IMG/VR virus record: IMGVR_UViG_3300038701_001599
Coordinates: 64,001-108,763 of that record
Reading direction: 5' to 3' (one strand)
DNA length: 44,763 bases
DNA from: a virus
Shown here: in pieces, positions 16,201 through 44,763 of the stretch
Position numbering within the stretch: position 1 is the first letter of the stretch
How the letters are laid out: each line of letters begins with the position of its first letter
The notes under the pieces: model-generated
Told to the model about the DNA's origin: nothing
Database searches by the model: none
The model's input: the letters and a program-made list of their open reading frames with translations, nothing else
Program-made: the position numbers and the translations under genes

Positions 16201-16574
16201 CCTATGCCATCCTGTATAAATATTTGACCGTCTCCGTCTTGGGTCGTGATATTCAGAAAGTTTCCACTTCCTACGGTCACGGTGCGGTTGTCAATTATAG
16301 TACCGTTGGTGTTGTAGATATTGTCAGAGCTGCCGATCTGAAACTGCACCCACTTTGTCCCATCATACTGCCATAGCTGATCGGTATTTTGTACCACTGT
16401 CAAAAGACCATCATACAAATCTGTAATAGTGGACGTGTCACTTAATGTAGCAATAACAAAGCGCCCATCAATAGGATTAGGCGTAGACACATCAAAAAAA
16501 GTATTGATTGGAATCTGAGCTTTTGCACTCACCGCCAAAACAGAAAACAAGGTTATGTATAGTATTTTTCTCAT
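13281..16574 (-). CDS. Large tail-fibre-like protein with signal peptide
   Basis: A 1097-residue protein, the longest single gene in the window. It begins with a signal peptide (MRKILYITLFSVLAVSAKAQ) and is then a long, acidic, Asn/Thr/Ser/Gly-rich chain with repeated DDQTAAEV and ...ALDEL/ALEEH elements (near 230, 630 and 960) that are typical of phage tail-fibre shafts. The C-terminus ends in a compact beta part. It probably forms the shaft of a trimeric receptor-binding fibre. The region 15900-16500, encoding the N-terminal part, is more GC-rich than the rest, suggesting mosaic assembly. ATGA junctions link it to both neighbours. Confidence 0.75.
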   Translation of the reverse strand: MRKILYITLFSVLAVSAKAQIPINTFFDVSTPNPIDGRFVIATLSDTSTITDLYDGLLTVVQNTDQLWQYDGTKWVQFQIGSSDNIYNTNGTIIDNRTVTVGSGNFLNITTQDGDGQIFIQDGIGLQLGGNTSTPGGRETVNFPNVGGGLQYGANYSNRAGFGNRTIPDWGYISEHTVDTLSSLADTTAAANNVGRIVHVVDVDQKWTVNSAGSWEALSGSGGTDDQTAAEVSVTPTGNLNSTDVQAALEEHQADIDALGAGGNTFDHVAFDTSSTHNVDVGEVAWNDQEGTLDVGLLNGSVLQIGQEQPVLVKNKTGFTIPDGTPLRFVGTEGNSGRILVAPAIADGSYSSYYNFGAATQEIPNDDMGYATPFGKIRGIELDDDNTNLNCNAEVWGDSTILYLDASTPGCYTKVKPTGANQKIPFAAIISAGNNGSMFVRPTLFAAIEDVSGVNIDTANLAVGQFLRYQNNLWENVLLEAEIIPLDDVTGYYTSGNIEGALQEIGSDIQSLVSGGSDGDGIYDGNGTTPSNTVVTLTDNITIGGVQINSTQDISNVNTINGTDPSTYLTSEVDGSVSNEGSLSVLVGASNTSVIRSNTSGSTDVTLQVGSNMTINESGNIIAFNALDDQTAAEVAYDNAGSGLSATNVKDALDELDSDVTANAVTAGNGITNNSGTFNLGGTLTGDISLTDGANTHNLTLAGINIFESEADTNKLSSNTVVMGDLETPAQLDIWMPAATNDIRGSEVLRLYGNTSLTLFSGSSFIALNNAANTVALNSGFVVDALGRVQLGNTNSGGTAIGQIAFNQADTSLYIFDGVNFIPAVRASGGSGSPDGVATAGTLDTGNEEIDITVNGAADFSIDISNIANIAAFNQFLTSTLAQPLILNDQIVKNGLTTPGISITDGGALVLPEATGTYSPSSNGELFYDSNQLQYRANGTTRVVNDWDDLLNIPSDLSDGTVTAAESSYSTTTSGLSSTTVQDAIDDIAITPNDTTLGAAATTYSIDLGNKQNHIELVSLTSTDTNDQIDLTVTNPKNGGVYTFHFIGADGEEIGWPSNFYYANETQMPQAGSPMTLTASDFFTCYYSSTNSRFYCK

Positions 16575-17932
16575 CGGTTGAAAGTGTAGTTTGAGGCGCT
16601 GGTAGTCGTGCTGCCGGTGTTCAGAAAATAAAATACATAAGGTACGTCTGAGTAGTTATTAGGAAGACCTGTACTTGTTACTGTAGGATAATCTACCCTT
16701 GTAAAACTAGCAGTTACATTGAACCCATTAGGATCAATAATACTACTCAGGTTTGTATCAGACCATGTTTGAGGAAATCCATATACAATTAAGCCTGTAC
16801 CTGTATAGCTTACTGTCTTATTTTCTTCCGTTTGTACCAGTTTGGTAAGTGTACCATACGGGTCTGCAAAGGCTGTAGCTGTGTCTGCCACCATACCGTA
16901 AAGTACAGGATATACTGCCTGAATTGTTTTAATTTCTGTTTGAATAGTTCCTGACTCAGTATCAGATTCCCAATCAGCAAAAAATCTAAAACTATAACTG
17001 GATGCCTCAAAAGTATCTACAGGAGTTTGAAGTGGTGTATAATATACAAATCTGTTTTCAGTTAATTTGACAGTATTTGTATAAGGAACATCTGGCTCTT
17101 GATATAATGTATCACCAGTAGTTAAATTTAGTAAATAGTGGCTGGTAATAGTAGCACCAGATGGATTACTTACAACCGATAAATATCGTATATTTTCTTC
17201 AATACCTACTTCGTAAACTTGTCCAGAAGGGCTTTGGTTAAATGCACTAAAAGTAGGGGGAGTAAAATACCACCATTCTAACCAGTCCTCTATTGTATTT
17301 CCTCCAATATTAGTATTTACTTCTGGTACTCTAAGAATAGCTCTATTAGAGTTAAAGTTGTTTGTACCTGCTGAGCCTACAGCTACACCAGTAAATAATG
17401 TTTGACCATTACCTAGTTGAATATACACACTATCATTAATTTGAGTAGTACCAATAACATCATTTAATGCAAGACTATCTATAATAAGATAATTCCTATT
17501 AATCAAGCAAGCTTGTAAATCTTCAGGTAGTTTATACACATAAGGCATAAGCTTAAGACTGTCTGTCAAATCTACAAAAGCAGCAACTCCTGTAGGTATA
17601 GTAGATAACTCTCCTGATAAATCTACTGCTGTGCCTTGAATAACTGTATTTCTTACAAGTGGTTGCTGTATTTCTGTAATATTAGTAACAGGTAGTTGAT
17701 AGCATTTACCATCTGTAGCAACTATAATATTCAAGTTAGTACCTGTAGTATCAAAGCCTAAACCAATACTATTATTTCTAAAAATACCTTTAAAGTTAAA
17801 GTTAGGGCCAGAACCCGAAGTTCTTACAATAGGGCTTAAATAACCATTAAGTATAGTGTCTAATTTTTGACTATAAGAATTATAAGATAAGCTTAAAAAT
17901 ACTATTAAAAATAAAATATGTATTTTTTTCAT
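16571..17932 (-). CDS. Secreted beta-rich fibre/adhesin-type protein
   Basis: A 453-residue protein starting at ATG 17932 (ATGA overlap with the upstream stop; a second ATG two codons earlier is less likely). The N-terminus is a standard signal peptide (KKIHILFLIVFLSLSYNSYSQ). The mature part is Thr/Asn/Tyr-rich and beta-dominated with a probable Ig-like C-terminal segment. No family is recognised. With the two genes after it, it forms a run of three consecutive fibre-region genes that all encode export signals. Confidence 0.65.
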   Translation of the reverse strand: MKKIHILFLIVFLSLSYNSYSQKLDTILNGYLSPIVRTSGSGPNFNFKGIFRNNSIGLGFDTTGTNLNIIVATDGKCYQLPVTNITEIQQPLVRNTVIQGTAVDLSGELSTIPTGVAAFVDLTDSLKLMPYVYKLPEDLQACLINRNYLIIDSLALNDVIGTTQINDSVYIQLGNGQTLFTGVAVGSAGTNNFNSNRAILRVPEVNTNIGGNTIEDWLEWWYFTPPTFSAFNQSPSGQVYEVGIEENIRYLSVVSNPSGATITSHYLLNLTTGDTLYQEPDVPYTNTVKLTENRFVYYTPLQTPVDTFEASSYSFRFFADWESDTESGTIQTEIKTIQAVYPVLYGMVADTATAFADPYGTLTKLVQTEENKTVSYTGTGLIVYGFPQTWSDTNLSSIIDPNGFNVTASFTRVDYPTVTSTGLPNNYSDVPYVFYFLNTGSTTTSASNYTFNR

Positions 17933-24301: not shown

Positions 24302-25482
24302 CATGTGTTATCGTAACTTTTTTAATTATGTTACTTCTTACACTTTCATGTAAGCTCGGACTATATCTTCAAGGTATTACCTTGTTCTGCGCTCTTGGAA
24401 ATTTCACCATATTTTCACTTAGGTTACTTTTTCTAGTCTCTGAACGTTTTACCTATTTCTAGGCAACTTCGCTGCTGATTGTCACATAATAATAGTTTTT
24501 TAAACATTCACATTTGCAATTACTTGCTATGTTGTAGTACTATTATTTTCGCGAGTTTCCAGCAATTCACAGAATTAAGAGACAGACATTTCAAGTCAGT
24601 GAAGCTTATATTTTAATTCAGGATGAATATAAGCCGTAATCAACATTTCAAAAATCTTTTTAAATTTTTTAGGTAGATATAATTTATTATCATTATGGAC
24701 AGTAAAATAAATACCAAATTGTTTTAAGCAGTGCTCATTAAAAATTCTCAAACTTTTTTTAGTAAAAGAATTAGTAGCAATTCTATAAGAGTGTTTTGTT
24801 TTAGTACCATCGTCCATAAAATGAATTGCTAAAGATAAAGCATTATAATATTTTAAACTTTCTTTAGTAAGCTGTTTATCTGGGTTATATAGTTCATTTC
24901 TTAAAAATTCTAAATACTGATATTTTTTAGTAGAAAAAGAACAAGAAAAATAGGTCTTATTAGTTCTCTTATCAAATCTAGGAGTATCTATTTTAAACAC
25001 AGAGTCTAATTGAACAGCCTTCCATTTACAATATTCTCTTTGTTTTAAAGAATGAACGCACCTTAAATAGCCCGAAGGATGAATATAAGAGTCTCCTAAA
25101 GCAGTTCCAATTAAAATACTTTTTACATAATTATTTAAATTTTGTTTTTTTATATAGTAAGGAATTCCTTTTTGATAATTTAAATTATTCCTGGTTCTAA
25201 ATACTTGAGTAGTTCCTCTACTAACTTTAAAAATATCGTCAATATCAATATTTCTATAACCCCTTTTTAATAAGATTTTTACTGTTGATTTTTGTAAAAT
25301 CCCTGGAGTCCCTTTCCTGTAAGGGAATCTAAGTTCATGACGTTTAGCCCATCGTGTTACTAGCTTTCTGCTTACTCCTAGTTTTTCAGCAGCTTGAGAG
25401 CTAGTAAGACCTTTTTTAATTAGGTACGATATTACGGATTTTTTCATTGCAATATTAGTTAAGCTGCAATGTTTTGAATTTT
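24302..25482 (-). ncRNA. Group I intron in the capsid gene
   Basis: A self-splicing RNA of 1181 nt. On the minus strand the conserved core is complete: P element AATTGCTGGAAA near 24553-24566, Q element AATCAGCAGCGAAG near 24467-24481, R element GTTCAGAGACTAGAA (24431-24445) and S element GAAGATATAGTCC (24358-24370), with R and S forming P7. P1 pairs exon end AGAGAU with GUCUCU (24578-24583), including the U-G pair at the cleavage site. P10 pairs the adjacent guide with exon 2. The intron ends in G. A LAGLIDADG gene lies in the P1 extension, between the 5' splice site and the guide. The core suggests subgroup IA. Confidence 0.9.
24596..25447 (-). CDS. LAGLIDADG homing endonuclease inside the capsid intron
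   Basis: A 283-residue protein that should cut intronless capsid alleles and promote spread of the intron. Two LAGLIDADG-type helices are visible, ILIGTALGDSYIHP (about 111-124) and ALSLAIHFMDDGT (about 205-217), matching the LAGLIDADG_2 arrangement in which both half-sites come from one chain. The first 65 residues add a helix-turn-helix (GLTSSQAAEKLGVSRKLVTR), a common DNA-recognition extension. The TGA stop is immediately before the intron's guide sequence and the start follows the 5' splice site by 35 nt, so the gene fills the loop of P1. It is read in the same direction as its host gene. Confidence 0.85.
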   Translation of the reverse strand: MKKSVISYLIKKGLTSSQAAEKLGVSRKLVTRWAKRHELRFPYRKGTPGILQKSTVKILLKRGYRNIDIDDIFKVSRGTTQVFRTRNNLNYQKGIPYYIKKQNLNNYVKSILIGTALGDSYIHPSGYLRCVHSLKQREYCKWKAVQLDSVFKIDTPRFDKRTNKTYFSCSFSTKKYQYLEFLRNELYNPDKQLTKESLKYYNALSLAIHFMDDGTKTKHSYRIATNSFTKKSLRIFNEHCLKQFGIYFTVHNDNKLYLPKKFKKIFEMLITAYIHPELKYKLH

Positions 25483-27672: not shown

Positions 27673-28503
27673 TTAATTGTCTTTTTTAATAGACTGTTTT
27701 AATAATTTAAAGTCTTCTTCATACATAATATTTTTATTAAACGTCTTATTTTCTTTTTTACAGTGTCTTTTAATAGACTCTTTTCCTAAAGAAAGTTCTC
27801 TACTACATTCATTTACACTATTAAAAATTTTAATTATGTTATAACTGTTATTATACATAATTACTTTTTTAAAATTTCTTTTAGCTATAAATTCTGCTTT
27901 TGGTATAGATAGTATTTTATTTGTATAGCTAAACAGCCTTCCTCCGGTTTTATAAATAATTTTGTTTTTATTACTGTTATTTCTACAGGCGTACGCAATA
28001 TTTGTAGAATGTAAATTATATGTACTAGCCGCACTTGAAGTACTGTTAAAAATATTAATAACTTTGTAATTTTCATTAAATTCATATACTGTTTTACTTG
28101 TAGATAAAACGGAAGCTTTGTTAGCCTTTTTTACTATTTGGTTATGTAGTTTCTTATTTTTATTAATTTTTAATATTGGGTTTTCTTTCCAGTTTTTTAG
28201 CTTTGTAATGTGTTCTTTTTTATGTTTAACCCCAGTATTGTTACCACCGCGTTTTAAATTATAAAAATTATTATTATTTACAGCATTATATAATTGAATG
28301 TAGTGAATTTCTAACTCGTTTAAAAGAGCGTAGTTAAAATGTCCTTTAACAATAATTTTTTTGCAGAAATTGTCTTTTCCATATTTTTTAATAGCTTGTT
28401 TTAATAATTTTCCTGAGCCTAAGTAAGACAAATTATTATATTTAGACTGTCCAATGTATTTTTTACCATTAACTTTATTAGTGGTAATATAAATACAAGC
28501 CAT
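27673..28503 (-). CDS. Free-standing GIY-YIG homing endonuclease
   Basis: A 276-residue protein. The GIY-YIG core opens with CIYITTNKVNGKKYIGQSKY (residues 3-22) and continues with FC...E65 in NELEIHYIQLY, the catalytic Glu region. Residues about 140-265 contain two NUMOD-like or AP2-like repeats (VYEFNENYKVINIFNSTSSA and VIMYNNSYNIIKIFNSVNEC) that should bind DNA. It is not within an intron: its ATG overlaps the portal stop and the scaffold gene follows 100 nt later, so it sits as a free-standing homing gene in an otherwise conserved gene pair. It may promote its own spread and co-conversion of flanking virion genes. Confidence 0.8.
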   Translation of the reverse strand: MACIYITTNKVNGKKYIGQSKYNNLSYLGSGKLLKQAIKKYGKDNFCKKIIVKGHFNYALLNELEIHYIQLYNAVNNNNFYNLKRGGNNTGVKHKKEHITKLKNWKENPILKINKNKKLHNQIVKKANKASVLSTSKTVYEFNENYKVINIFNSTSSAASTYNLHSTNIAYACRNNSNKNKIIYKTGGRLFSYTNKILSIPKAEFIAKRNFKKVIMYNNSYNIIKIFNSVNECSRELSLGKESIKRHCKKENKTFNKNIMYEEDFKLLKQSIKKDN

Positions 28504-35278: not shown

Positions 35279-36236
35279 CGTAATTTTGGACTATATCTTC
35301 ATCTAGTCGTATTGACTTTAGATGTCTCGCGCTGTGAATTTACTTTTTCTAATCCTATTTTTAAATGAATTTTATAATACATAGAAGGATGAATATAAGG
35401 CTCTATTATTTTTTTAAACTTTCTAAATTCTCTTGTTCCCATGGTTAGTCTATAAAACAATTTACCTGTGTCTGTTGTGCTTTTGTGAATATTCCAATTT
35501 ATATCCCATTTGTTTTTAAAATATTGCTGTAGTATTAAAGCTTCTTCATAATTAGTATAAGTGTTTAATACAGCCCTACATTTAGAATAGTATTCAAAAC
35601 CATCTTTTCTTTTGTAAGTACTATGACTTAAAGAACCGTCATCCATATACCAAATAGCTAATGCTTCTTCATTTAATAAATTTAACAAAGGTTTAGAATA
35701 TGTTTTTTTACCGTTTCTATAAATTAGATTATAAATACTCTTTAAATACTTGTTAGAATTTTTTTCAAACTGTAAGGCATTAATTTTAGATCGTCCAGAA
35801 TTTTTATATACAGTATAAGGTACTTTACGTCTTTTTCCTAAAATTTGATCTAATTGGTAAGCTTTATATAAAAAGTAATCTTTTTGTTTTTCTGAATGCT
35901 TCATTAAAAACCTATAACAGGAATATCCATTAACATATCTTTTATTAATACACCCATCTCCTATAGCACAGGCAATTACAAATATCTTTTCATTTTTAGT
36001 CATGTAACAACTATTTAGTTGTTTATTCAATTTAAGTAAATTCTAGTCTCTGAACCTTGACCTTATTAATTAATTTAACTTAGGCCCTTGGCTGCTGATT
36101 ATAACACAAATAAATTTTTAAGCATTGTGCATTTGAGATTTCTCCCTCTGTTTTAGCTTTATTTGTTAAGTTATTTTCCAGCAATTCACGAGATTTTTCA
36201 TTTAGTATTTCTACTAAAAGGAGGCAACGGAAATTT
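35279..36236 (-). ncRNA. Group I intron in the terminase gene
   Basis: A self-splicing RNA of 958 nt. P1 pairs exon end GAGGU with GCCUC 12 nt into the intron, with the U-G pair at the cleavage site (exon ends at 36237). P10 pairs UUUCCG in the same guide with exon-2 CGGAAA, which fixes the 3' site after G 35279. The core follows: P element AATTGCTGGAAAA near 36175-36187, Q element AATCAGCAGCCAAGG near 36087-36100, R element GTTCAGAGACTAGAA (36041-36055) and S element GAAGATATAGTCC (35288-35300). R and S pair as P7. The LAGLIDADG gene lies between R and S, in P8, a different place from the capsid intron. Confidence 0.92.
35299..36003 (-). CDS. LAGLIDADG homing endonuclease inside the terminase intron
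   Basis: About 234 residues from ATG 36003 (starts MTKNEKIFVIACAIGDG). An ATG nine codons upstream falls in a short stem of the intron, so it is less likely. LAGLIDADG helix 1 is IFVIACAIGDGCINK and helix 2 is LAIWYMDDGSLSHS, the two-motif single-chain type also seen in the capsid intron. No N-terminal helix-turn-helix is present, so the two enzymes differ in architecture. The TGA stop overlaps the S element of P7 by several nt, so gene and ribozyme share bases and cannot be separated. It should cleave intronless terL at the Walker A codons. Confidence 0.85.
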   Translation of the reverse strand: MTKNEKIFVIACAIGDGCINKRYVNGYSCYRFLMKHSEKQKDYFLYKAYQLDQILGKRRKVPYTVYKNSGRSKINALQFEKNSNKYLKSIYNLIYRNGKKTYSKPLLNLLNEEALAIWYMDDGSLSHSTYKRKDGFEYYSKCRAVLNTYTNYEEALILQQYFKNKWDINWNIHKSTTDTGKLFYRLTMGTREFRKFKKIIEPYIHPSMYYKIHLKIGLEKVNSQRETSKVNTTR

Positions 36237-42128: not shown

Positions 42129-42305
42129 ATGGTATTACTATCACAATTAATTAAATTTTTAAAGAAGAAAGAATTAATTTACACCAGATATAGAATAGAA
42201 AACATCGACATCATAGAAATAGACGATAATTATCAAGAAGATAGAAAGATTAGATTTGAATTTATAGATCAAGAATTAGATCATCTAGAAATAGTATCAG
42301 ATTAA
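42129..42305 (+). CDS. Small acidic protein, 58 residues
   Basis: MVLLSQLIKFLKKKELIYTR, then an acidic second half ending HLEIVSD. It starts 4 nt after the micropeptide stop and is the last gene of the RepL-like operon. It reads as a basic helix followed by a beta/acidic part. No family is recognised. Its base composition is like its AT-rich neighbours to the left, unlike the GC-richer genes to the right. Confidence 0.55.
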   Translation: MVLLSQLIKFLKKKELIYTRYRIENIDIIEIDDNYQEDRKIRFEFIDQELDHLEIVSD

Positions 42306-42335
42306 TTTTTTGTTAAGAGTATGTTAGATATTGGG

Positions 42336-42377
42336 GTAAATATATCATATATTAAAGTAAATATATTATATATTAAG
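42336..42377 (+). repeat. Two tandem 21-bp AT-rich repeats with internal palindrome
   Basis: GTAAATATATCATATATTAAA (42336-42356) is followed directly by GTAAATATATTATATATTAAG (42357-42377), two mismatches in 21. Each contains AATATAT-n-ATATATT, a 15-bp palindrome. The 21-bp period, two turns, and the extreme AT content fit either tandem operators or an unwinding element near an origin. The repeats fill the gap between the RepL-like operon and the GC-richer cassette region. Confidence 0.65.
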
Positions 42378-42405
42378 GTATACAAAATCCCACCCCCGGT
42401 GACTT

Positions 42406-42451
42406 TTTCTAATCCTTGATACCCCCGTCAATTTTCTCAGACGGGTTTTTT
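42406..42451 (+). promoter_or_regulatory. Box-2 element followed by intrinsic terminator
   Basis: TTTCTAATCCTTGAT (42406-42420) is a copy of box 2 of the recurring right-end element, here without box 1. It is followed immediately by a perfect 6-bp GC-rich stem CCCGTC/GACGGG (42424-42445) and six T residues (42446-42451). The terminator closes the RepL-like operon or acts as an attenuator in the leader of the zinc-ribbon gene, whose ATG is 20 nt further on. Confidence 0.75.
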
Positions 42452-42471
42452 CACAGCAAAACGCTTGAATT

Positions 42472-42723
42472 ATGCGTAATTGTATCTCTTGCGGCAACAA
42501 AACCGCAACGCTTGCACCTTACTGCGAGGAATGCTGTCACGACGGTCTGATTGGACTAGACAACGACAGCATGCAAGAATGCCCAGACATGTCAGTACTT
42601 GCAGACATTGAGGCTGAGGAAGCCTTCTGGGCGCACACTCCTGACCAGGGAGATGTGGACAATCCAGCAGAGCCTTACTTCCCTCCCTTAGAGGAGGGGC
42701 AGGACGATCCGCTGCCATTCTAA
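42472..42723 (+). CDS. Zinc-ribbon-like acidic protein
   Basis: An 83-residue protein. The N-terminus MRNCISCGNKT...APYCEECC gives CxxC (C4, C7) and CxxCC (C18, C21, C22), a small zinc ribbon. The rest is very acidic and Pro-rich (LADIEAEEAFWAHTPDQGD; ends PLPF). The acidic tail with a zinc finger recalls phage proteins that mimic DNA or bind host transcription factors, but that is inference. The G+C content is distinctly higher than to the left, marking the start of a different compositional region. A box-2 element and a terminator precede it. Confidence 0.6.
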   Translation: MRNCISCGNKTATLAPYCEECCHDGLIGLDNDSMQECPDMSVLADIEAEEAFWAHTPDQGDVDNPAEPYFPPLEEGQDDPLPF

Positions 42724-42734
42724 TCTTAACCACC

Positions 42735-42759
42735 AGCCCTGAGCCTAGTGCTTGGGGCT
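42735..42759 (+). repeat. Intergenic hairpin with CCTGAGC
   Basis: The inverted repeat AGCCC/GGGCT encloses TGAGCCTAGTGCTTG. It lies 12 nt after the zinc-ribbon gene stop. The CCTGAGC core also occurs in the hairpins at 42992 and 44273, suggesting a family. No U-run follows, so it may affect RNA stability or translation of the next gene rather than end transcription. Confidence 0.5.
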
Positions 42760-42774
42760 TCAACTCTTTATCTT

Positions 42775-42987
42775 ATGAGCTTTATTAAGAAGACTTCGTT
42801 CTATCTGGTACTAACAATCATCTCACTGTCATTTCCGTTTGGGGTGGCCAAGATGATGTCTTTGTACGCACCAGAGGTTATAAGCTATAACGAGCTGGTA
42901 AGTTCGTTTGGGTTCTGGCTTATTAATATTATCCTTTGGTTTGTAATCCTGATGCTGTCGCTCCTCTTTGACCCTTACGAAGAGTAA
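42775..42987 (+). CDS. Small membrane protein with two segments
   Basis: 70 residues from ATG 42775 (a GTG further upstream lies inside the preceding hairpin). Two hydrophobic helices: about 8-28 (SFYLVLTIISLSFPFGVAKM) and about 44-64 (SSFGFWLINIILWFVILMLS), ending in acidic DPYEE. Its size fits an early phage membrane effector, for example one acting on host envelope proteins, or a second holin. No family is recognised. Confidence 0.55.
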   Translation: MSFIKKTSFYLVLTIISLSFPFGVAKMMSLYAPEVISYNELVSSFGFWLINIILWFVILMLSLLFDPYEE

Positions 42988-42991
42988 ACCA

Positions 42992-43009
42992 ACGTCCTCA
43001 GCATGACGT
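42992..43009 (+). repeat. Intergenic hairpin, GTCCTCAGCATGAC type
   Basis: The inverted repeat ACGTC/GACGT surrounds CTCAGCAT. The inner 14 nt GTCCTCAGCATGAC match those at 44274-44287 in 13 positions. It directly follows a stop codon. A near copy of the box-2 sequence (TTAATTAACTCTTGATAC, 43041-43058) and a long hairpin TGTTACT...AGTAACA (about 43019-43071) fill the space to the next element. Confidence 0.55.
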
Positions 43010-43097
43010 AAAAAGGCTGTTACTTTGTTTCTAAGCTACTTTAATTAACTCTTGATACTCTTTTAGTAACAAGATAATAAGTGGCTTATATAGGCTT

Positions 43098-43136
43098 AAA
43101 AACTATTTCCATAAATACCTTTTCTAATTTATGGCG
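43098..43136 (+). promoter_or_regulatory. Right-end two-box element, copy A
   Basis: AAAAACTATTTCC (43098-43110), a 10-nt spacer, then TTTCTAATTTATGGCG (43121-43136). It precedes the structured RNA region and no convincing gene. It matches copies B, C and D in box 1 exactly and in box 2 at most positions. The spacer length differs from copies B and D, so it is not a fixed-spacing -35/-10 promoter. Confidence 0.65.
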
Positions 43137-43164
43137 ATTTTGCCACTAAACTTAAATTTGTTTT

Positions 43165-43407
43165 CCCAGTTTCTAGAGCTGGGACGGTACAGTAGTCGCA
43201 CTACTCTGCCGTTAATGCCTAAAGGTTGGGTCGCGCCCTCCTCATTTCCCCGCTATCAAAGGGGAGTAGGATTGTTACGCCTAGTAACAGTACATAAGTA
43301 TAAGCTGCTCTAAGCCCAGCTTGTCCTACTTAATCTAACTCTCTAGTGAACAAAAATAGCTTGAGAGGCCGGAAGGAAGCATGGGCAGAGATGCTTCCTT
43401 ATTTTTT
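43165..43407 (+). ncRNA. Candidate structured non-coding RNA
   Basis: About 243 nt without a credible gene but with an ordered set of stems: CCCAG/CTGGG (43165-43183), a 13-pair stem with one C-C mismatch (43184-43212, loop CGC), GGG/CCC (43228-43238), TCCCC/GGGGA (43247-43265), TGTTAC/GTAACA (43273-43289), AAGCTG/CAGCTT (43302-43322) and a 10-bp terminator stem (43373-43400) followed by six T. A TAAATTTG box at 43153-43160 matches the Bacteroidota -7 motif and would start transcription at about 43165, the first base of the first stem. Box 2 of copy A is just upstream, its TTATGG lying near -33. I do not recognise the RNA family. The base composition is GC-richer than the phage average. Confidence 0.6.
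43373..43407 (+). terminator. Strong intrinsic terminator of the RNA gene
   Basis: A perfect 10-bp stem AAGGAAGCAT / ATGCTTCCTT with an 8-nt loop is followed by A and six T residues. It is among the strongest terminators in the window and closes the structured RNA. A second stem with one bulge, AATAACAGAGAA / TTCTCTTGTTATT (43408-43436), follows immediately. Confidence 0.9.
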
Positions 43408-43440
43408 AATAACAGAGAATAATTTCTCTTGTTATTAATT

Positions 43441-43501
43441 AAAAACTATTTCCTGATCTGCCGCCCTTCGGTTGGCATCTCAACTTTTTCTAATTTCTGG
43501 C
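43441..43501 (+). promoter_or_regulatory. Right-end two-box element, copy B
   Basis: AAAAACTATTTCC (43441-43453) and TTTCTAATTTCTGGC (43487-43501) flank a hairpin with arms GCCGCC/GGTTGGC (43460-43476), so the spacer is longest here (33 nt). It starts 4 nt after the hairpin that follows the terminator at 43373-43407 and lies 28 nt before the ATG of the 109-residue gene. Confidence 0.7.
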
Positions 43502-43529
43502 ATTATTACTAATTAAAAAATACAAAATT

Positions 43530-43859
43530 ATGAATATCAGCCTAGAAACTCTTATCAATAAGGTAGACTTAAACAGTCTTTCGAGAAAAGGGTTAATCAC
43601 CCTATTCAACGAAAGCTACTATCCAGAGATAGGTTTAGAACTTGTCTTGGGAATTTACGAATTTCCTGAAGTTCTAAAAGAAAAAGAGGGCTACATGGAG
43701 AGCAAACCCACAAGAAGATATAAACTACACTTACACAAAGTGCGTCACACTTCACAAGAAGTGCAGTATTTTTTTGAAGGGAAAGGCAGCAAACACTACA
43801 GGTGGGCCAAACTATCGGAGTGGCAAGATAAAGAGCTTGTACACAAAATCTGGTACTAA
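43530..43859 (+). CDS. Hypothetical protein, 109 residues
   Basis: A soluble, charged protein with helical N-terminus (ISLETLINKVDLNSLSRKGL) and a beta-rich basic C-terminal half (RRYKLHLHKVRHTSQEVQYF). No family is recognised. It is framed by copy B of the two-box element upstream and a long hairpin plus copy C downstream, so it forms one self-contained cassette. Its composition is intermediate between the AT-rich and GC-rich zones. Confidence 0.6.
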   Translation: MNISLETLINKVDLNSLSRKGLITLFNESYYPEIGLELVLGIYEFPEVLKEKEGYMESKPTRRYKLHLHKVRHTSQEVQYFFEGKGSKHYRWAKLSEWQDKELVHKIWY

Positions 43860-43861
43860 AC

Positions 43862-43895
43862 TAACAGGCATTCCTTCGGGATGTAAGTCCTGTTA
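43862..43895 (+). terminator. Two-part hairpin after the 109-residue gene
   Basis: Outer stem TAACAGG/CCTGTTA (43862-43868, 43889-43895) with an inner stem CATTCC/GGGATG, 2 nt after the stop. It is followed by AT-rich DNA without a strong T-run, so termination is uncertain. It may protect the message 3' end. Confidence 0.5.
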
Positions 43896-43934
43896 CTACA
43901 CCTTATTATATAGTAACAAATAATACTATTAATA

Positions 43935-43971
43935 AAAAACTATTTCCCTCTGACCTCTTCTAATCCTTGAC
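43935..43971 (+). promoter_or_regulatory. Right-end two-box element, copy C
   Basis: AAAAACTATTTCC (43935-43947), a short spacer and CTTCTAATCCTTGAC (43957-43971). The box-2 end continues as TTGACA, followed after 17 nt by TAAACA and the leader TATCAGTTAAA that also precedes the 65-residue gene at 44328. This copy could thus contain a promoter. The ATG of the 86-residue gene is 33 nt downstream. Confidence 0.7.
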
Positions 43972-44004
43972 ATTCATTTATTTATCAGTTAAACATTTAT
44001 TGTT

Positions 44005-44265
44005 ATGGTTAATATCAAAGTGTTGAAGCATTCTGAAAGCGGCAAGTCTATGTTCTGCCGCGTTACTCGTAACTTCATGGGAGCAATCTCAGAAGTTGGC
44101 GTAGGATACCTTTACAAAGATCCTGATGCCGAACTGGCCCCAGTAGGTACAATAGCACAATATCCTGGCGAAGTTGGCTTCGAGCCACTTGTCGATATTG
44201 ATACGGGAGAAATCCGAACCACTGCTGACGGCAAAGCTGTACTACAACGCATCGTACTGAAATAA
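44005..44265 (+). CDS. Hypothetical protein, 86 residues
   Basis: A compact beta-rich protein (MVNIKVLKHSESGKSMFCRV; ends with strands GKAVLQRIVLK), about the size of a small OB or SH3-like barrel. No catalytic motif is visible and no family is recognised. It starts 5 nt after a T-rich leader containing TATCAGTTAAA. The hairpin GTCCTGAGCATGAC follows its stop by 8 nt. Confidence 0.6.
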   Translation: MVNIKVLKHSESGKSMFCRVTRNFMGAISEVGVGYLYKDPDAELAPVGTIAQYPGEVGFEPLVDIDTGEIRTTADGKAVLQRIVLK

Positions 44266-44272
44266 CCGTCAC

Positions 44273-44288
44273 AGTCCTGAGCATGACT
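44273..44288 (+). repeat. Intergenic hairpin, GTCCTGAGCATGAC type
   Basis: The inverted repeat AGTC/GACT encloses CTGAGCAT. The 14-nt core differs by one base from that at 42994-43007. The ATG inside it could open an unlikely longer form of the next gene; the real start is taken as 44328. Confidence 0.55.
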
Positions 44289-44327
44289 ATAAACTGCTCT
44301 ATTCTTTTATCAGTTAAATCAAACATC

Positions 44328-44525
44328 ATGTCAGAGCAAATAAATCTAGAACACTTCGTAGATTTCATGTTAGATAACTGGATACTTTATGCTTCCGACA
44401 GCAAGAAAGGAAAAAGGTTATTCTACAAAAGTCTCGGAGACACCAAATTTAGAGTGGTACATAACGGCATAGTACACGACTTCAAGAGCATACACTCCGC
44501 CGTAAAAAAGTACAACGAGATTTAA
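44328..44525 (+). CDS. Hypothetical protein, 65 residues
   Basis: From ATG 44328 the product is MSEQINLEHFVDFMLDNWIL..., a helical start followed by a basic part (SKKGKRLFYKSLGDTKFRVV). The leader TTTTATCAGTTAAATC is shared with the gene at 44005 and may hold a translation signal. An in-frame ATG at 44283 is part of the conserved hairpin and is rejected as start. A strong terminator follows 6 nt after the stop. Function unknown. Confidence 0.6.
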   Translation: MSEQINLEHFVDFMLDNWILYASDSKKGKRLFYKSLGDTKFRVVHNGIVHDFKSIHSAVKKYNEI

Positions 44526-44531
44526 TTTTAG

Positions 44532-44552
44532 GAGGCATTTTTGCCTCTTTTT
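44532..44552 (+). terminator. Intrinsic terminator after the 65-residue gene
   Basis: A perfect 5-bp stem GAGGC/GCCTC with a 6-nt loop and five following T residues. Box 1 of copy D begins 3 nt further on, so the next cassette starts directly behind it. Confidence 0.8.
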
Positions 44553-44555
44553 ATT

Positions 44556-44600
44556 AAAAACTATTTCCTTCACTTCGTTCAACCGTTTCTAATTCTTGAC
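44556..44600 (+). promoter_or_regulatory. Right-end two-box element, copy D
   Basis: AAAAACTATTTCC (44556-44568) and TTTCTAATTCTTGAC (44586-44600) with a 17-nt spacer. It lies directly after a terminator and ahead of a cassette that continues beyond the window. Confidence 0.7.
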
Positions 44601-44763
44601 TACCATGTACTATACATTGGAAGTCCAAGGATAATTTAGAGATTTATGAATAGTAATTTATTCACAGTAATCTCTTTATTCTTGATATTTATTTAATTTT
44701 CTAAGTTTAATTTAGAGATCTAAGAATAGCTAAATCCTTGTAAATGAAGGATTTAGGAGTATA
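44601..44763 (+). repeat. Non-coding end with direct repeat and hairpins
   Basis: No gene is visible. TAATTTAGAGAT-n-TA-n-GAATAG occurs at 44632-44653 and 44708-44729 (22 bp, two mismatches). The first copy is part of a hairpin AGAGATT/AATCTCT with inner GAATA/TATTC (44638-44675). A perfect 10-bp stem CTAAATCCTT/AAGGATTTAG (44730-44756) closes the window. These could be leader structures or sites of the next cassette. Confidence 0.55.

Follow-up and report, generated by a model that had tools for sequence, protein, structure and literature searches.

Genomic setting of the candidate RNA

The stretch of DNA analysed here (the window; 44,763 nucleotides) is the final 44.8 kb of the 108,763-bp IMG/VR virus record G000. 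An identical 127-bp repeat was found at both ends of the record, and the genome was therefore treated as circular, with a length of about 108.6 kb (contig positions past the circular join are given below as L020). The genome is packed, about 93% of it being coding. The genes for terminase, portal, capsid and GroEL, all on the - strand, match PHROG families, and the best annotated relative of the terminase is found in Cellulophaga phage phi14:2, a member of the Crassvirales. In the annotated genome of phi14:2, small genes lie past the structural cluster on the opposite strand, and G000 displays the same layout, with small + strand genes beyond the - strand terminase, portal, capsid and GroEL genes. 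Such an opposite-strand cluster of small genes constitutes the early module of crAss001 and phi14:2 (PMC8375218). Synteny with phi14:2, taken together with this published placement of early genes, suggests that the candidate RNA unit lies within the early region of a crAss-like phage, which bears out the first-pass annotation (made from the letters alone), where an early-region phage RNA had been proposed. crAss-like phages belong to the most abundant phages in the human gut (PMC6235969). The early genes that we examined have no recognisable relatives. The G+C content is 35-48% in much of window 42300-44763 and L020:1-3900, compared with about 27% in the adjoining 5 kb.

Upstream boxes, terminator and sister units

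The features of the candidate unit and of the three units that follow it are listed below.

43102..43110, + strand: box A, ACTATTTCC, of the common upstream element (4 copies in the last 1.7 kb of the window)
43122..43135, + strand: box B, TTCTAATTTATGGC, matching TTCTAATnnnTGRY
43131..43313, + strand: ATG-started 60-codon frame with its start within box B, rejected as a gene
43153..43160, + strand: possible host-type (Bacteroidota) -7 box, TAAATTTG, an exact TAnnTTTG
43165..43372, + strand: body of the candidate non-coding RNA, a chain of hairpins (z between -3.3 and -3.6 relative to shuffles, and -0.7 on the - strand)
43373..43407, + strand: intrinsic terminator, a 10-bp stem (pairs 43373-82/391-400) followed by ATTTTTT
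43445..43501, + strand: boxes A and B of the second unit, matching the two-box element
43530..43859, + strand: early ORF of the second unit (109 aa), no family match
43939..43971, + strand: boxes A and B of the third unit, ahead of ORFs 44005-44265 and 44328-44525
44560..44600, + strand: boxes A and B that head the fourth unit, whose leader crosses the circular join to a Pistol ribozyme at contig 214-290

The early region holds four copies of the 9-mer ACTATTTCC, and the rest of the genome has none. The pattern TTCTAATnnnTGRY occurs five times in the window, always on the + strand of the early region (0.26 expected in shuffles), and the complete two-box element, ACTATTTCC followed by TTCTAATnnnTGRY, is present exactly four times within 1.5 kb, with 0 expected in shuffles. 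Of the four copies, two stand ahead of protein ORFs, one at the head of a structured leader and one in front of the unit that lacks an ORF. Since the gap between the boxes ranges from about 10 to 34 nt among the four copies, box B alone is the probable core of an early promoter. A sigma-70 promoter scan gave no match at the RNA unit. The possible host-type -7 box to which transcription of the RNA had at first been attributed, TAAATTTG, is indeed present and ends 4 nt before 43165; the motif is common (178 TAnnTTTG sites in the genome), and the sister units have no aligned copy. The repeated upstream boxes are better evidence than the -7 box. At the other end of the unit, the 10-bp terminator with its six T was recovered at 43373-43407 as first described. 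It is among the strongest of the five terminator-like sites of the 2.5-kb region (1.7 expected), and the boxes of the next unit begin within 40 nt of it. The RNA unit has both a two-box element and an intrinsic terminator in its sequence, an anatomy that is a stronger argument for an RNA gene than the folding described next.

Predicted structure

The partition function predicts a fold of eight body helices and the 10-bp terminator stem, in agreement with the ordered chain of at least six stems proposed beforehand. The body helices with a pairing probability above 0.5 are as follows (all on the + strand).

43165..43183: hairpin 1, CCCAGUUU/GAGCUGGG (pairs 43165-72/76-83)
43184..43212: hairpin 2, two 6-bp segments (43184-89/207-212 and 43191-96/200-205; probability 0.96-0.97)
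43228-31/35-38: small helix
43240..43270: hairpin with a CCCC/GGGG core (43240-42/268-270 with 43247-51/261-265; core probability 0.92)
43271..43291: 8-bp hairpin AUUGUUAC/GUAACAGU (pairs 43271-78/284-291)
43296..43331: two-part hairpin AAGU..UAAGCUG/CAGCUUG..ACUU (43296-99/328-331 with 43301-07/317-323)
43339..43367: hairpin CUCUC/GAGAG (43339-43/363-367 with 43345-47/359-361)

The 3' arm of hairpin 1 has an alternative partner, CCCAGCUU, at 43316-43323.

The comparison with shuffled controls that the first-pass annotation had called for came out in favour of structure. For the whole unit (43165-43407; 243 nt) the minimum free energy is -85 kcal/mol against a mean of -67.6 for dinucleotide shuffles (z -3.64; 1 of 200 shuffles as good), and with the terminator removed (43165-43366) z is -3.29, none of 300 shuffles being as good. 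The reverse complement of the unit reaches a z of only -0.67, so the excess of structure is confined to the + strand. This asymmetry favours structure at the RNA level over a DNA palindrome, and a hairpin element acting as DNA was accordingly disfavoured. The transcribed strand is thus more structured than its composition predicts, to a degree that is moderate against the genome background: among 203-nt windows at 170 other positions of the genome, taken on both strands, 4.7% reach z <= -3.29, and folding alone does not mark the unit as exceptional. The + strand of the early region has a mean z of -2.06 compared with about -0.6 in the rest of the genome (p about 1e-6), and strong folding is also present within early-region coding frames, so the structure of the unit may in part reflect a property of the region.

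Search for related sequences

DNA searches with the RNA or its region against phages and plasmids, in distant mode, gave no match. The exact hairpin-2 pattern was absent from the IMG/VR and GTDB genomes searched, and the two-box pattern had no match in IMG/VR. The early ORFs at 43530, 44005, 41118 and contig 2859 likewise had no match in IMG/VR, nor had the two of them that were also compared with phages. Related loci were collected with two anchors, the capsid (18 loci) and a 203-aa gene (52 loci), and covariance models of the 5' 127 nt and the 3' 102 nt were run over the relatives and phi14:2. The best non-self match, with 17 bits and an E of about 0.2 in the full set, fell on a 43-nt fragment in G011 and was treated as chance; the others did not exceed 15 bits. 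Because the contigs of the nearest relatives (G001, L053 and L055) stop short of the early region or close to where it begins, the lack of a homologue is weak evidence of absence. A strongly folding stretch in G003 was not counted as non-coding RNA, as it looks like a coding frame truncated at the end of the contig.

Among known families, Rfam gave no match at the gathering threshold, ROOL and GOLLD included, and what matched at E up to 5 was at chance level. Neither ARAGORN nor Rfam identified a tRNA or tmRNA in the RNA unit, and no self-cleaving ribozyme family of Rfam, Pistol included, matched 43080-43460. In the literature searched, we found no paper on non-coding RNAs in the early region of crAss-like phages.

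Coding potential and alternative explanations

A unit that encodes a 60-aa peptide is very improbable. An ATG-started frame does exist (43131-43313), but its start codon lies inside box B, it stops well short of the terminator, and it has no Pfam match. Its score of -0.50 bit per codon is akin to that of false overlapping ORFs (-0.32) and not to the median of small ORFs (+0.26); early genes generally score below the other genes of this phage, so the coding score is a weak test on its own. The start within the second upstream box and the unprotein-like composition had both been pointed out in the first-pass annotation, and here they stand. The stretch could also be a non-functional spacer or a decayed gene in a fold-prone region, an explanation that we consider unlikely: it would account for the 4.7% of other windows that fold equally well, for the generally more structured early + strand and for conservation not having been found in the relatives searched, but it leaves aside that a promoter-like element and a strong terminator flank the unit, that its folding is strand-asymmetric and that the genome is otherwise about 93% coding.

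There is a slim chance that the RNA is instead a cis-acting leader or attenuator, in which alternative folds gate read-through past the terminator into the 109-aa ORF at 43530. The terminator does lie directly upstream of this ORF, and GAGCUGGG, which forms the 3' arm of hairpin 1, has two possible partners, CCCAGUUU (-10.6) and the downstream AAGCCCAGCUU (-13.2); yet the terminator takes no part in this competing pairing, and ORF 43530 has a two-box copy of its own (43445-43501) downstream of the terminator. A regulatory RNA that acts by base pairing, its loops targeting host mRNAs or rRNA, would find possible seeds of 9-11 nt in the single-stranded loops TAATGCCTAAA (43213-23), CTCTAAGCC (43308-16) and GAACAAAAATA (43348-58). 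A search of the phage genome for exact complements to the RNA of at least 13 nt found none, which makes antisense control of the phage's own genes less likely. Antisense action on the phage was rejected on this ground, and we regard the base-pairing explanation as a whole as rather improbable.

Proposed function of the RNA

The unit at 43165-43407 is probably an independent non-coding RNA gene. The shuffles, the strand asymmetry, the two-box element, the terminator and the poor coding signal all support the initial description of a structured RNA gene without an open reading frame. We propose that this early phage gene would yield a folded, non-coding transcript of some 245-280 nt. Transcription, by the virion RNA polymerase or the host polymerase, would start between box B and 43165 early in infection and stop at about 43407, and the RNA would thus be released as a free molecule. 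More tentatively, the free RNA might bind or occupy a host protein or ribonucleoprotein and so act in trans by its shape, and not by long base pairing. Sequestration of host factors, antisense and decoy action had been raised in the first-pass annotation as things that early-region phage RNAs can do. With no exact complement of at least 13 nt in the phage, a mostly paired RNA and a self-contained unit, such a shape-based role is the most economical guess, and a protein or ribonucleoprotein decoy is more likely than an antisense function. That the RNA acts as a decoy is, taken by itself, possible but doubtful; to the overall proposal of an early, self-contained structured RNA gene that acts in trans by shape on a host protein or ribonucleoprotein we would give about even chances. 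A discrete early non-coding RNA with its own signals is a small and testable object.

Comparison with known phage RNAs

The tRNA cluster of T4 encodes the small stable RNAs RNA C and RNA D. Like these, the window RNA is phage-encoded, structured, of unknown function and located in the same quarter of the genome as tRNA genes, but it has its own promoter-like element and terminator, and the nearest tRNA is about 2.6 kb away. ROOL and GOLLD are phage RNAs with extensive structure and no known function that frequently lie close to tRNA islands (PMC12286853). The window RNA shares with them the high degree of structure, the phage origin and the unknown function, and differs in its length (243 nt versus about 660 to more than 800 nt) and in having no Rfam match at the gathering or a relaxed threshold. 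The tRNA-associated HDV-like theta ribozymes of gut phages, counted as such if within 5 nt of a tRNA (PMC10879173), are likewise structured RNA elements of Bacteroidota phages; in contrast to them, the window RNA has a terminator and no adjacent tRNA.

Other RNA elements in the early regions

On the far side of the circular join, some 1.4 kb downstream of the window RNA, lies a Pistol ribozyme (RF02679; L020:214-290, + strand, 56.6 bits in Rfam). Both are structured RNAs of the same early region and strand, but the window RNA matches neither Pistol nor any other ribozyme. At the known G|U cleavage site of Pistol, which we take to apply here, the predicted cut falls one nucleotide before the AUG at contig 287, which opens an early ORF of about 125 aa. 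Such a cut would release a long structured leader, and the mRNA left behind would be nearly leaderless. The leader, between the fourth two-box element and the ribozyme (window 44600-44763 plus L020:127-213), has a very strong predicted structure (z about -7).

A second Pistol was found in a related phage (L098:2360-2421, - strand) upstream of same-strand tRNA genes, and a RAGATH-1 hammerhead just over the cut-off in G006 (L041:3139-3217, + strand) upstream of a same-strand tRNA-Gln. Another related contig encodes a tmRNA (L084:6947-7229, + strand; ARAGORN and Rfam, 54.6 bits), with a tRNA after it. In several relatives the early region likewise includes long ORF-free gaps, many of which fold well; in these gaps the + strand does not fold significantly better than the - strand (p 0.06).

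That ribozymes and tRNA genes recur in the early regions of the relatives suggests that RNA products, besides small proteins, may take part in takeover. The ribozymes, tRNAs and tmRNA of this phage and its relatives are in keeping with an importance of RNA products in this region, but do not indicate the role of the window RNA. One could speculate, with considerable doubt, that these crAss-like phages keep arsenals of structured RNAs in their early regions (free non-coding RNA genes, ribozyme-processed leaders, tRNA-like RNAs and tmRNA) beside small early proteins, of which the window RNA would be a member that disarms a host factor by its shape.

Between tRNA-Arg and tRNA-Met, a four-way-junction RNA (L020:1994-2056, + strand) has a 7-bp stem GAGAGUG/CACUCUC around three hairpins and is followed by a T-rich stretch. 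tRNA-like stretches at L044 about 16480-16590 (- strand), in the early region of L045 and at L098:2080-2200 (- strand) have acceptor-like ends, a GGTTCGA T-arm and an abnormal middle, and were not called by ARAGORN. A group I intron (window 24337-24639, - strand, 80 bits) lies between ORFs of the structural region and is overlapped by an ORF (24596-25447, - strand) that reads like a homing endonuclease; ORFs 27673-28503 and 35299-36030 also have the look of intron or homing genes.
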